From: Anaerovibrio lipolyticus LB2005
GTDB taxonomy: Bacteria; Bacillota; Negativicutes; Selenomonadales; Selenomonadaceae
Length of the DNA stretch: 64,000 nucleotides
Assembly: GCF_000621545.1 (NCBI RefSeq)
Contig: NZ_JHYA01000005.1
Location: 186,001 to 250,000, forward strand
Direction of reading: 5' to 3'
This document shows, one piece after another, positions 52,505-56,699 of this stretch. The first letter of the stretch is position 1, and the number at the start of each line of letters is the position of its first letter. The notes below the pieces were generated by a model, which made no database searches, had not been told where the DNA came from, and saw only the letters and a program-made list of their open reading frames with translations. Both the position numbers and the translations under genes were made by a program.

Positions 52505-53233
52505 ATGAATATTGCCATTGTTGACGATAATGAGCAAGACCGTAATGATGTCCTAACATATTGCCAAAACTATATTCATACAAATTTTTCCCTGGAGGAA
52601 AGCTCTGTTCACATTACGACCTTTGATAGTGGTGAGGCTTTGCTGGAAAAATATGATTCCGGTGCCTTTGACCTGGTTATTTTGGATATTTATATGACGG
52701 GAATAACCGGTCTGGAAACAGCCAAGAAAATTCGTGAATCCGATAGTGAGGTCAGCATTATATTTTTAACCTCCAGCGATGAACATATCCTTGAGGGGTA
52801 TCGGGTATTTGCCATAGGGTATTTCATAAAGCCATTGACAGAGCACCAAAAGGAATTTGCCGAGACCTTTGATTTTATTTTTCCGAAATTGCTAAAAAAG
52901 AAAGGTGGTATAACCTTAAAGGTCAACGGAGCTCCTATAGATATTTCTTATAGTGACATAATTTACATTGATGTTTTTGATTCCCATAATATAAATTTTC
53001 ATTTGGATAATAAAGTCCTGGTGTCACTTATGTCTTATGGGGAGGCATGTGATTTATTGCTGAAGGATGAGCGCTTTTTGGAATTCAATCATCGCATGAT
53101 TCTCAACATGGATTATGTGGAGGATATGGAATCAGAGTCCTTTCGTATGACTGATGGCTCTGAGCTTTCCATAAGCCGTCGTAAGCGCCAGGATGTAAAA
53201 GTGGCATATATGAACCATATAATCAACAAGTGA
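52505..53233 (+). CDS. LytTR family response regulator (AgrA-like)
   Basis: 242 residues. Receiver domain with acidic pocket VDDN (D7, D8), phosphoacceptor D61 in LVILDIYM, T89 (FLTSSD) and K109 (FIKPL). C-terminal LytTR DNA-binding domain (~135-240: SDIIYIDVFDSHNINFHL, RFLEFNHRMILNMDYVEDMESESFRMTDGSELSISRRKR). LytTR regulators bind pairs of direct repeats. The two AgrC-like sensor genes converge on it from the minus strand, so it is their probable partner, though it is not in their transcript. Confidence 0.93.
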   Translation: MNIAIVDDNEQDRNDVLTYCQNYIHTNFSLEESSVHITTFDSGEALLEKYDSGAFDLVILDIYMTGITGLETAKKIRESDSEVSIIFLTSSDEHILEGYRVFAIGYFIKPLTEHQKEFAETFDFIFPKLLKKKGGITLKVNGAPIDISYSDIIYIDVFDSHNINFHLDNKVLVSLMSYGEACDLLLKDERFLEFNHRMILNMDYVEDMESESFRMTDGSELSISRRKRQDVKVAYMNHIINK

Positions 53234-53244
53234 AGTGATAAAAA

Positions 53245-53288
53245 ATGACCTTATCTGTTAGTTCAAGCAGATAAGGTCTTGTTTTTTT
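53245..53288. terminator. Bidirectional terminator between response regulator and sensor operon
   Basis: GACCTTATCTG / CAGATAAGGTC perfect 11-bp stem with A-run before and T-run after; serves both converging transcripts. Confidence 0.9.
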
Positions 53289-53291
53289 ATG

Positions 53292-54185
53292 TTATTTGGC
53301 GTTTTCTGAGGTGTGCTCCAGCAGGGCTTTTTGGGCAGCAATATGATTTCTGATGCTGTCGTAGTCACCCTTTTCCAATAAGGCGTAAATCAGTCGGTAG
53401 CTGTGACGCATATCGTGGCGTAATACGGAAAGGGCTTTTTCATTTTCCTGCATTAATTTTGTGTGTTCCTTTAGACTTTCACGCTGTTTTGTAAGTCGTT
53501 CCTTGTTTTCCTTGAGCTTTTTGTGCTGCTGTTCCTCATCTGAATTGTAATGAACGATGGAATAGAAAATGAAAAAGAACAGAGGAATGGAAAATCGGCT
53601 TAAGCGGGTACTTAATTCCGGCAGGAAGGTCACATTGGAGATGGATATCAAACATCCCACATAGAAGGAAATAGGTAAAAATGCTATATACCAGCGAAGC
53701 CTGGTGTCGGATACAAATTGCTCGTCTGGCAAAAGACTGGTAAATAGCTTTTGTCCCCAAGGATATATAAGCAAAAACAGGAATATCCACAAAGTGAGTT
53801 GCAGTGGCAGTAATATGGCTGTCATGTTGGAATAAATCAGCGTAAGGATAATTCCGGAGCTGGAATGGAGCATAAAAGCGTAGAGAGCCTGAATACCCAA
53901 TACAAAAAGATGCTGTGGCAAACGGTGGGGGATATGAATTACTGAGATAACTAAGTATGGAGTCATGCCAAAGAAAAAGAGCAGTTTATATGTTGCCATA
54001 GTTATTCCCAGTGAATAGGTAACTGAAAAATTTATAAGCAGTCCGAAAACACTCCATATCAGCATATTGCGCCATAGAGTAGCAGCTTCTTTCCGTTCCA
54101 TAATCTGGCTGAAGGGCAAATAGCGGATGTAAGCCCCTGCCAATTGTATTATGGTAACCAAAAGGGCGTAGGAGAATGCTAGCAT
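53292..54185 (-). CDS. AgrC-like membrane sensor with phosphoacceptor His but no ATPase domain
   Basis: 297 residues. About six to seven transmembrane helices (1-~212), a charged coiled coil (~215-250), then a DHp-like helix AL.VLRHDMRHSYRLIYALLEKGDYDSIRNHI with H257 in the RHDMRH motif. It ends ~40 residues after the His and lacks the N-box and G-box ATPase domain; the terminator follows at once, so no broken remainder is visible. It is a paralogue of the preceding 447-residue sensor (shared RLSRF..PL..F segment). Starts within that gene (7-base overlap). Either a phosphotransfer partner or a truncated duplicate. Confidence 0.85.
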   Translation of the reverse strand: MLAFSYALLVTIIQLAGAYIRYLPFSQIMERKEAATLWRNMLIWSVFGLLINFSVTYSLGITMATYKLLFFFGMTPYLVISVIHIPHRLPQHLFVLGIQALYAFMLHSSSGIILTLIYSNMTAILLPLQLTLWIFLFLLIYPWGQKLFTSLLPDEQFVSDTRLRWYIAFLPISFYVGCLISISNVTFLPELSTRLSRFSIPLFFFIFYSIVHYNSDEEQQHKKLKENKERLTKQRESLKEHTKLMQENEKALSVLRHDMRHSYRLIYALLEKGDYDSIRNHIAAQKALLEHTSENAK

Positions 54186-55522
54186 GATATATCATTCCTC
54201 CAATATAAGAACATACTTACCTGATTATTATTTTGGGTAAAGGTGGCATAACCATGATATTTTTCCAAAAACATTTTCAGGGACACCATACCAATGCCAT
54301 GTCCTTCTCTGGTGGCACGGGGCAGTCCCTCCTCGTCAAGATCAATAGGCGTGGAGCATGGATTGGTTATGGATATTACACATTGATGGCCGTTATGTTG
54401 TATTTTAAGCGATATTTCGAGATTATTATACCCCTTTTCCTGCTCCTTGATGCAGGCCTGAAGGGAGTTTTCCAGCAGATTGGACAGCAATATGCTCAAG
54501 TCATTTTCATCAGTATTGAAATTTGCCGGCAGGTTTACCTTTGGAGTAAACTTTATTCCCAGCTTTTGGGTTCGGGAATTGTAAATGGAAATGGCGGTGT
54601 TGATAATTGGCGAATCAGAATATGAAAGAATGACGGCAGAGGGCAGCTTTTGCTCCTGCTTTACCAGAAAAGCCTTTATCTCGTCACCCTTTTGGGCATC
54701 AATCATATTAAGTAGTCGGTCATAGCTGGCAAGAAAGCTCTGACGGAACCGTTTTATCATGGTCTTGTTTTTTTCCAGCATAAGACGGTGCTCCACCAAG
54801 GACACCATCTCATTGGACAGCTGTTGATTGTCAATAAGCAGCAGCTTTTTCTCCTTGTATTGCTTTGCAGCGATTTGAACATAGTGATAACAACATAGGA
54901 AAACAAGGGGGAGGTAAAACCTGGACAATCGTTGCTCCCATGAAGATAACAGGGTATTGTCAATGGTCATAATTATGTGAGCAATGAAAATTGACAGAGG
55001 CAGACTGGCAATATAAAGACCAATATTTTTATCCCGAAAGAACTCATCAAGAGGCAGAAGCCGGGAGAAAATACGTCGCTCTATAGGAAGCAGCAGAACA
55101 AACAGCAGAATGTTTATTAAGGTGAAAAGCAGTGTAGTCAGTATATAATGCAAATCATTGAAAAAAATAATCAGGATAAAGCTGCTGAGGGTATAAAGGA
55201 AAAAGCTCCATATTCCGGACATTCCCAGTACAAAGATATGAAGGGAAATATGACGGGGGATAGCCAGAAGAAAAATAAAAAAATAGGGAATCCAGCCAAG
55301 AATGAGCAGGGTCTTATATGTAATGGTACTAAGAACTAAATCATTTAAAATGTTGTAATAAATAAAGCAGCTTAGGACGGCAAAGCCAGTAACTGAATAC
55401 CATAGGCGCTGGATATCCTCTTGGTTCATTTCTTTTTTAAACGCCAAAAATCTGAGATATGTATGAGCTACCTGGAGCACAGTTATTAAGATACATATTG
55501 GAATAATAAGATTATCCATCAC
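54179..55522 (-). CDS. AgrC-like sensor kinase with ATPase domain but Gln in place of the phosphoacceptor His
   Basis: 447 residues. About six to seven transmembrane helices (1-~215), coiled coil (~220-255), degenerate DHp region KNKTMIKRFRQSFLASYDRLL with Q261 where H (as in RHD) is expected, then a GHKL domain: N-box LSILLSNLLENSLQAC (~343-357), ITNPCSTPI, and G-box GHGIGMVSLKMFLEKYHG (408-425). So it can probably bind ATP but has no obvious own His to phosphorylate. First gene of a two-gene minus-strand operon; upstream control region has a 20-bp tandem repeat. Confidence 0.88.
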   Translation of the reverse strand: MMDNLIIPICILITVLQVAHTYLRFLAFKKEMNQEDIQRLWYSVTGFAVLSCFIYYNILNDLVLSTITYKTLLILGWIPYFFIFLLAIPRHISLHIFVLGMSGIWSFFLYTLSSFILIIFFNDLHYILTTLLFTLINILLFVLLLPIERRIFSRLLPLDEFFRDKNIGLYIASLPLSIFIAHIIMTIDNTLLSSWEQRLSRFYLPLVFLCCYHYVQIAAKQYKEKKLLLIDNQQLSNEMVSLVEHRLMLEKNKTMIKRFRQSFLASYDRLLNMIDAQKGDEIKAFLVKQEQKLPSAVILSYSDSPIINTAISIYNSRTQKLGIKFTPKVNLPANFNTDENDLSILLSNLLENSLQACIKEQEKGYNNLEISLKIQHNGHQCVISITNPCSTPIDLDEEGLPRATREGHGIGMVSLKMFLEKYHGYATFTQNNNQVSMFLYWRNDISC

Positions 55523-55580: not shown

Positions 55581-55600
55581 AAGAAAAGTCAATTGGTCTA

Positions 55601-55640
55601 AAAATCGACCACTTTTTGCAAAAATCGACCACTTTTTGCA
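55601..55640. repeat. Two exact 20-bp tandem repeats upstream of the sensor operon
   Basis: The unit AAAATCGACCACTTTTTGCA occurs twice in a row without mismatch (55601-55620, 55621-55640). It lies just upstream of the candidate minus-strand -35. LytTR regulators bind direct repeats spaced about two helical turns apart, so this is a likely binding site for the nearby LytTR regulator; that link is inference. Confidence 0.8.
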
Positions 55641-55679: not shown

Positions 55680-55720
55680 TTGTCTAGTGGGGAGAAAATA
55701 TTCTTCTCCTGAGTAGACAA
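55680..55720. promoter_or_regulatory. 41-base interrupted palindrome upstream of the lipoprotein gene
   Basis: TTGTCTA (55680-55686) mirrors TAGACAA (55714-55720) and an inner GGAGAA mirrors TTCTCC. It lies 45 bases before the lipoprotein start, in the divergent region. It may be an operator or a leader hairpin; it lacks a T-run for a terminator. Confidence 0.5.
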
Positions 55721-55765
55721 TACCATGATGGGAAATAATATTCAAGTTCAGGGAGGAAAAAGAAA

Positions 55766-56419
55766 ATGATGAAAAAATTGCTGGTAGGGTTGGTGGCTTT
55801 GATTGCCATTTTCGCTATCGCGGGCTGCGGCACGGAGAAGCCAAAGGACAGTGCCGACAAGGCTGTTTTAGGTTATTCTGAGATAATGGCCTATGGCGTA
55901 TCAGATAGTATGGCAGCAACTGGTATGACAAAGGCTCAGGAGGAGCAGATTCAGGAGGCAGTAATTGGCGATTTGCTGAAGGCTTTTGCTAAGTTCCCAC
56001 TGAATGATGCAAATGTTGAGGATATCACTGCTACATACATCACCAAGATGAAGGCAGCTATGCAGATTAAGACCAAGATTAAGACAGATGATGCTGAGCA
56101 TCCTGTAGTAGAGGTAACAGCCAATGTTCTTGATCAGGCAGGTGCTGCAAAGCTGGCTGAAACTAATGAGGATATTATTGCTCTTGGCGTTGTGTTGGGT
56201 GCCCTGCAGGCTAATGGCTATACTGTTGAGCAGTTCAAGCAGGATCCGGATTTCCAGAAGGCTACTCTGGAGTGCATTGAGAACTACATCAACGAGTTCC
56301 CACTTAAGATGGGGCAGACCTATGAATGCAAGTGCGAAATTGTAAAGGGTGACGATGGCAAGACGTATTGGGCTCCAGTTGATGTTGAAGGCCTGAAGAA
56401 GTTTGTAAATGGCTTGTAA
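55766..56419 (+). CDS. Lipoprotein of unknown function (DUF5105-like)
   Basis: 217 residues. Signal peptide LLVGLVALIAIFAIAGC with lipobox Ala-Gly-Cys (C21), then a mostly helical mature part with many Lys, Asp and Glu (AVLGYSEIMAYGVSDSMAATGMTKAQEEQIQEAV...). Layout and length resemble DUF5105 lipoproteins, without certainty. The mature part has two Cys in YECKCEIVKG near the end. SD AGGGAGG upstream. Divergent from the sensor operon and downstream of the repeats, so it may be in their regulon. Confidence 0.8.
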   Translation: MMKKLLVGLVALIAIFAIAGCGTEKPKDSADKAVLGYSEIMAYGVSDSMAATGMTKAQEEQIQEAVIGDLLKAFAKFPLNDANVEDITATYITKMKAAMQIKTKIKTDDAEHPVVEVTANVLDQAGAAKLAETNEDIIALGVVLGALQANGYTVEQFKQDPDFQKATLECIENYINEFPLKMGQTYECKCEIVKGDDGKTYWAPVDVEGLKKFVNGL

Positions 56420-56498: not shown

Positions 56499-56699
56499 AT
56501 GAAAAAGTTTAGTATGATTTTGGCAGCTATGGTATTTGCTTTGGGTGCTCAGATGGCTAGCGCAGCTTCTTTGGACTGTAACGTAACTTCTTCCAACTAC
56601 GCTTTAATGGATGAGGAAGTTGAGCTTATCGTTGATGAACCTGTAGAGTCCGGTGATGTTCTCGTGGACGAGGACGGCGACGTTTGGGTAGTTGAGTAA
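56499..56699 (+). CDS. Small acidic secreted protein
   Basis: 66 residues. Sec signal peptide KKFSMILAAMVFALGAQMASA with an AxA cleavage site, leaving ~43 residues that contain one Cys (SLDCNVTS), no Lys or Arg and many acidic residues (DEEVELIVDEP, DVLVDEDGDVWVVE). Good SD AGAGGAG. I recognise no family. Lies between the lipoprotein and the secreted peptidase, followed by a terminator. Confidence 0.75.
   Translation: MKKFSMILAAMVFALGAQMASAASLDCNVTSSNYALMDEEVELIVDEPVESGDVLVDEDGDVWVVE

Follow-up and report, generated by a model that had tools for sequence, protein, structure and literature searches.

Complementary loss of the phosphoacceptor histidine and the ATPase domain in two overlapping AgrC-like sensor genes of Anaerovibrio lipolyticus and other Selenomonadaceae

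The window analysed here, a stretch of 64,000 nucleotides from Anaerovibrio lipolyticus LB2005, contains two overlapping AgrC-like sensor genes that have lost opposite parts of a histidine kinase. The first encodes a long protein with an ATP-binding (CA) domain but without the phosphoacceptor histidine, and the second a shorter paralogue with the histidine but without the CA domain (Table 1). Judged from sequence, neither protein alone is a complete kinase of the AgrC/ComD type, a family that we take to be HPK10, and the pair together has both features. This is a split histidine kinase in the sense that the phosphoacceptor and the ATP-binding domain lie on separate proteins of one system. The two genes very probably specify one sensor kinase, an obligate heterodimer in which the long protein would phosphorylate the short one in trans and a LytTR regulator would take the phosphate.

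Table 1. Features of the split sensor locus, with positions counted from the first letter of the window
Feature	Position	Strand	Basis
Response regulator, convergent: receiver (D61) and LytTR DNA-binding domain	52505..53233	+	ORF, Pfam
Terminator-like hairpin between the convergent genes, 13-pair inverted repeat with T-runs flanking both sides	53247..53278	.	sequence
Gene 2, 297-aa AgrC-like paralogue, ends after the DHp hairpin, without CA domain	53292..54185	-	ORF, Pfam, AF2
His257 codon (RHDMRH)	53415..53417	-	alignment; invariant in 8 rows
Gene 1, 447-aa AgrC-like sensor with HATPase (CA) domain, without phosphoacceptor His, GTG start	54179..55522	-	ORF, Pfam, orthologues
Seven-base overlap ATGCTAG, gene 1 stop and gene 2 start	54179..54185	-	sequence
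GGAGG in the last codons of gene 1, 11 nt 5' of the gene 2 ATG	54197..54201	-	sequence
G-box GHGIGM, residues 407-412 of gene 1	54287..54304	-	sequence and alignment
N-box LSNLLENSLQAC, residues 346-357 of gene 1	54452..54487	-	sequence; core invariant in 15 rows
Gln261 codon, in the column of the phosphoacceptor His	54740..54742	-	alignment with H257 of the short protein
20-base direct repeat AAAAATCGACCACTTTTTGC, two copies, candidate binding site of the LytTR regulator	55600..55639	.	0.02 expected
Divergent lipoprotein (weak DUF5105 match, below cut-off), first candidate target	55766..56419	+	ORF, Pfam, relatives

The complementary loss had been proposed in an initial annotation of this DNA, and it is confirmed by the open reading frames, Pfam and the alignment. 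The long protein scores 47.4 bits with HATPase_c_5 (2e-12; cut-off 22), and this GHKL ATPase domain, with its N- and G-box, is absent from the short protein. Conversely, the RHD..H phosphoacceptor motif is absent from the long protein, where the alignment agrees with the earlier reading of a glutamine (Q261) at the histidine site, and the short protein is its sole carrier. In structure comparison the long protein matches best the cytoplasmic kinase of Staphylococcus aureus AgrC (6e52, 3.7e-8); a PDB sequence search with a profile of the long proteins matched no chain.

As for the short protein, the description of a paralogue with a histidine and no ATP-binding domain also holds: no ATPase family of Pfam or NCBIfam matched it at E up to 1, and it ends 40 residues past H257, right after the second DHp helix. 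The AF2 model (pLDDT 72, moderate confidence) places these helices at residues 195-272 and 275-295, and the models of both proteins have a run of helices N-terminal to the DHp. No confident match emerged from fold searches with the short protein, so that the absence of kinases among their results is uninformative.

The junction between the genes is as the annotation had it, with a seven-base overlap, and the GGAGG that precedes the second start is the probable ribosome site of gene 2, by which translation of the two genes would be coupled. A seven-base stop/start overlap occurs in 16 pairs of the family survey described below (ATGCTAG, ATGCTGA, ATGTTGA and similar; one with a TTG start), and GGAGG stands just 5' of the second start in 15 of these 16 junctions, the exception, L041, having GGAAGG. 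The overlapping start and the GGAGG inside the end of gene 1 are consistent with balanced synthesis of two subunits. Where a terminator was reported directly after gene 2 there is indeed a terminator-like hairpin, and the lack of decayed coding beyond it holds too: between the convergent stop codons of gene 2 and of the LytTR regulator there are 58 bases, too few for the remains of a decayed ATPase downstream. A hidden ATPase 3' of gene 2 was ruled out for the same want of room.

Could the short gene be an artefact of assembly? The locus is present in 7 of 15 other genomes of the genus that were examined, and a CA-less short gene (292-297 aa) occurs in six other Anaerovibrio genomes. A reading-frame error, one of the ways in which the annotation expected its proposal might fail, is unlikely because the truncation recurs in those six genomes, and assembly error or frameshift was rejected since both the short form and the junction recur. 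Another such way, a relative with a full-length version of the shorter gene, was found once: in G010 the second gene encodes 431 aa, yet its CA domain is degenerate, without the N-box Asn and without the G-box, and its partner still has a His. Not every relative has a complete long frame: it is interrupted in L041 (G004), and in L097 (G192) its start is short. Both genes are under purifying selection, with pairwise dN/dS values of 0.09-0.15 (short gene) and 0.09-0.16 (long gene) and with dN below dS in each domain and each comparison.

Two kinases of the A. lipolyticus LB2005 genome score over the HATPase_c_5 cut-off: the long protein of the split pair and one complete kinase, which has RHDLRG, an N-box and a G-box, and an adjoining LytTR regulator. 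No evident substitute for either subunit of the pair came to light. The genome-wide LytTR search missed the regulator of the split locus itself, and genome searches of this kind are therefore not exhaustive.

The split is far from a peculiarity of one genus. Among 189 genomes of the Selenomonadaceae, the profiles built from mini DHp proteins and from long kinases matched 98 and 92, and nearly all matching regions were fetched (among those left out are G202:C242, G134:C247, G152:C116 and G153:C28). Kinase ORFs were classified if they had a DHp match and fewer than 700 aa; the regions L127, L163 and L186 gave none. The search in related genomes that the annotation had called for returned the same kind of pair, in both polarities: of the 51 pairs of neighbouring kinase ORFs on one strand, 40 include a protein with the His and without a CA domain, these counts being of loci and not of independent events, as several loci are closely related. 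In every one of the 40 the partner lacks the histidine. These partners have both N- and G-box in 37 cases; two are cut by a contig end and one has a single G-box Gly changed. As for unpaired kinase ORFs, 64 of 70 keep both His and CA, and the other six are contig-end, broken or fragmentary (L045, L122, L140, L162, L164, L185).

The 40 split loci take several forms. Form A (8 loci), that of A. lipolyticus LB2005, has the long His-less protein first and the short membrane protein second. In form B (13 loci) the long His-less protein is followed by a protein of about 100-118 residues that consists of one hydrophobic helix and a DHp; in three of these loci longer ORF calls start 5' of the ATG that overlaps the gene 1 stop. 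The order is reversed, with the short His-bearing protein first and the long His-less protein second, in form C (3 loci) and form E (12 loci). The long protein comes first in form D (1 locus) and form F (3 loci). The form B loci (L050-L058 and L093-L097, with L055 belonging to form C) encode single-helix DHp proteins with RHDLRHH beside the His-less kinase, and the LytTR regulator is divergent in 12 of 13. Upstream of them, paired AAAAAGTGATG-like repeats are seen in 4 of the 8 regions printed.

The remaining 11 pairs are full length in both members. In L042, L098 and L132 the CA of the His-bearing copy is degenerate, and in L107, L115, L132 and L154 one copy has already lost the His; these six pairs are intermediates toward the split. 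In L156 both members retain the His and have a degenerate CA domain, and in L117 both are intact. Complementarity is not universal among full-length pairs, since three of them have a doubly dead member: L044, L169 and L173, the last with a gene 1 that lacks both parts and a complete gene 2. In L044 (3409-6077, G017) and L169 (2390-4980, G116), both tandem AgrC-like pairs, neither member has a phosphoacceptor His. A remote case is L061 (3347-5058), where an RHDARH protein (194-aa ORF) overlaps a His-less kinase and is followed by a same-strand LytTR regulator; it is probably a separate origin of the split.

Beyond the family, the DHp profile (A4) was run on 398 genomes sampled from the phylum, and 33 matched, 8 of them in the family. 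Outside it, the 6 matches with open frames below 340 aa and 4 others were opened, and all of these 10 regions carry a CA domain, a search in which remote relatives could be missed. In this sample of the phylum the CA-less form thus appears confined to the family.

How did the split arise? The columns of the histidine motif were removed before a careful tree was computed from the membrane and DHp parts; the rows of this tree were 28 of the 34 non-mini main-group pairs (L036, L040, L100, L106, L113 and L117 left out), the long proteins of 6 of the 13 form B loci and 12 single kinases. A quick tree included 19 singles, with 11 loci and every mini left out. In the careful tree the second genes of the 28 pairs form one clade (ultrafast bootstrap 95, SH-aLRT 97; 96% of 200 bootstrap trees), and the first genes lie on the opposite side together with 6 of the 12 single kinases, not as a clade of their own. 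The CA-less, His-bearing proteins are found among both, 9 in first genes and 9 in second genes, and a topology that unites these 18 in one clade is rejected (p-AU 2.5e-67) in a test that counted L120, cut by a contig end, and L093, with one G-box change, as CA-negative. The polarity follows lineage: in the genus of the window the first gene is the engine and the second the acceptor, and in form E the reverse is true. The tree being unrooted, one ancient tandem pair, divided in opposite directions by lineage, would be the simplest reading of these data and not a proof. It seems likely that an ancient tandem duplication gave rise to an obligate heterodimer and that lineages then split the duties oppositely, down to a phosphoacceptor subunit of 100 residues with a single helix. 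The quick tree places the form C proteins at a great distance, and likewise the long protein of form D, and both forms look like separate events; the branch of form D is very long and its placement unsure.

The mechanism that best accounts for these observations is the one already suggested for the locus, a heterodimeric kinase acting in trans, and the 40 of 40 complementary pairs, their spread over the family and the two polarities argue for it; the phosphotransfer itself we infer. The two subunits would be made from one message via the overlapping start and would dimerise by their DHp domains. In such a dimer the ATP-binding domain would come from the 447-residue protein, as would half of the DHp four-helix bundle, and the 297-residue protein would give the other half with the only phosphoacceptor histidine, H257. 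A signal at the membrane parts would cause the CA domain of the long subunit to phosphorylate H257 of the short one, in trans, and the phosphate would pass to D61 of the convergent AgrA-like LytTR regulator, which is predicted to bind 20-base direct repeats 5' of its own kinase operon and of surface-protein genes.

One objection is that a duplicated kinase is decaying in the ordinary way, one or both genes dying, as the interrupted long gene of L041 and the doubly dead members of L044, L169 and L173 might indicate. This explanation was rejected because both genes are under purifying selection (dN/dS 0.09-0.16), and it is barely credible given that the truncation point and the overlap are conserved and that the complementary loss is seen in both polarities: one engine and one acceptor in each split pair is unexpected from decay alone and is predicted by a working heterodimer. 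A different proposal makes the short protein a regulator or co-receptor of the long kinase, with the phosphate, if it flows, travelling via a different residue of the long protein. Repurposed pseudokinases do exist, DivL and RetS being examples, and a histidine in the DHp, H245, is common to the form A long proteins of Anaerovibrio, with a His near that column in 16 of 51 His-less rows. It is nevertheless missing in L043 and in the form B long proteins printed, and this is the commonest candidate (offset -16): no alternative His is conserved in the DHp of the His-less partners, so an alternative phosphoacceptor in the long protein, whose conservation would have spoken against the initial proposal, was rejected. 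What is invariant is the RHD..H motif of the short proteins (8 form A and 8 form B rows; all 13 of form B in the larger set), and the corresponding column of the long partners varies freely among Q, E, K, N, R, D, S, A, G and L, which makes the co-receptor role very improbable.

It might also be imagined that the phosphate is relayed between dimers, short homodimers serving as a membrane-bound, Spo0B-like phosphotransferase that receives phosphate from the CA domains of separate long homodimers, no mixed bundle being formed. The short protein does match the Spo0B-type DHp (PF14689), weakly and below cut-off (0.0084), and the His-bearing member of 13 loci has shrunk to about 100-118 residues, with one hydrophobic helix and a DHp. 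A mere external kinase, however, would need no DHp, and the His-less long partner keeps a whole one with dN well below dS; furthermore, FasB and FasC are reported to give heterodimers in two-hybrid tests, with no homodimers detected (PMC12675982). The relay is accordingly regarded as unlikely, and the mixed dimer of long and short protein is retained as the preferred reading.

With regard to known systems, AgrC is a single protein acting as a dimer of itself. S. aureus AgrC resembles the present pair in having a DHp, a GHKL ATPase and a LytTR partner, and probably in being a polytopic sensor, and it provides the best structural match, as noted above. The agr system differs in its AgrB protease: in the A. 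lipolyticus LB2005 genome no AgrB scores over the cut-off, the best reaching 14.2 bits against 23. Phosphorylation of AgrC takes place between two monomers, according to a citing passage in PMC3841183.

The nearest precedent, likened by its features and not by sequence relation, is FasB/FasC/FasA of group A Streptococcus (PMC12675982). There, two sensor kinases with six predicted TM helices work with one ComE-like regulator phosphorylated at D60; here, two AgrC-like sensors are adjacent, one ATPase would be needed, and a LytTR-type regulator stands beside them. FasC requires H246, its kinase domain is dispensable with residues 1-286 sufficing, and FasB supplies the kinase; FasB and FasC interact with each other and not detectably with themselves in two-hybrid tests (PMC12675982). 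By analogy, the short protein of A. lipolyticus resembles a natural counterpart of the laboratory FasC 1-286 truncation. There are differences: FasC retains a kinase domain and FasB its DHp histidines, whereas in the present pair each partner has, in nature, lost its part entirely. The Fas output passes via the FasX RNA.

Phosphoacceptor and ATP-binding activities also lie on two proteins acting together in CheA3/CheA4 of Rhodobacter sphaeroides, but these are chemotaxis kinases of the CheA type rather than membrane kinases of the AgrC type, with a P1 domain phosphorylated and no shared DHp bundle (PMC3591291). The same paper states that 3.66% of HisKA proteins in SMART lack the ATPase domain. 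Hik36/Hik43 of Synechocystis is called a split histidine kinase, with two-hybrid evidence involving one regulator (PMC7656254); it differs in being a CheA homologue divided into two genes. Among the titles and opening abstract lines listed from the open-licence literature there was no natural full split of AgrC-type kinases and none in Negativicutes, nor were the two polarities or the mini form found among them.

If the heterodimer reading is right, these proteins would be kinases restricted by nature to the trans reaction, and because of this the questions of cis versus trans phosphorylation, of asymmetric dimers and of one phosphate per dimer would become testable without engineered mutants. 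The family gives a graded evolutionary series, of either polarity, that runs from duplicated complete kinases to pairs with fully divided functions, and the ancient duplication, if real, would have produced a whole class of naturally hard-wired heterodimeric receptor kinases, with duplication, degeneration and complementation visible at many stages. The FasB/FasC mechanism would likewise be extended to a whole bacterial family. Modelling of split kinases (PMC3591291) predicts ultrasensitive or bistable output, and this might apply to the split AgrC-like pair.

A last point concerns the target of the regulator. The two exact copies of AAAAATCGACCACTTTTTGC sit between the kinase operon and the divergent lipoprotein gene. 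The A. lipolyticus LB2005 genome has six repeat sites, all exact; a reversed control pattern also gave six matches at up to 3 mismatches, so that the evidence resides in the exactness of the sites and not in their number. At up to 2 mismatches the repeat is present in all 8 other genomes with the locus (G010 and G017 included), with no control match, and it was found in 0 of 4 searched out of the 8 genus members without the locus. At the level of sequence, then, the 20-base repeat tracks the kinase system, and the LytTR regulator may bind it. The operon site of G014 has diverged, and its altered sequence occurs at two other sites of that genome and in none of the 8 others.

What lies behind these sites? 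In LB2005, three of the five other sites precede large proteins that we assume to be autotransporter-like, and two run off contigs. In relatives with the locus, the lipoprotein follows the repeat of the operon in 7 of 8, G010 having a 69-residue secreted protein instead. All sites of the relatives taken together, the genes are lipoproteins (7), presumed autotransporter-like proteins (5), secreted proteins of 66-69 residues (2), a presumably clostripain-like protein (1) and a small protein that we take to be phosphatase-like (1; L205). Pfam found no family over cut-off in two large targets of the autotransporter-like kind, and this label rests solely on a signal-like start and a C-terminal aromatic residue. 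These genes (L194-L197; L198-L213), with their surface and secreted products, appear to make up a small candidate regulon. Several copies of the repeat lie at contig ends by autotransporter-like genes, including two 758-aa ORFs (C6, C19) whose printed ends are identical.

The neighbourhood of the lipoprotein gene holds further features. Its leader has an imperfect inverted repeat, TTGTCTAGTGGGGAG...CTCCTGAGTAGACAA, at 55680-55721, similar in close relatives, which is a possible RNA element or operator. At 56499-56699 there is a gene for an acidic, secreted-looking protein of 66 residues, the same printed sequence of which occurs on another contig (L191) near a lipoprotein paralogue (L194); its relatives stand behind the repeat in G008 and G010. 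Lastly, the segment 56792-58825 encodes a protein that is presumably clostripain-like, and in G014 the diverged repeat is followed by a gene whose product starts in a similar way (L198).
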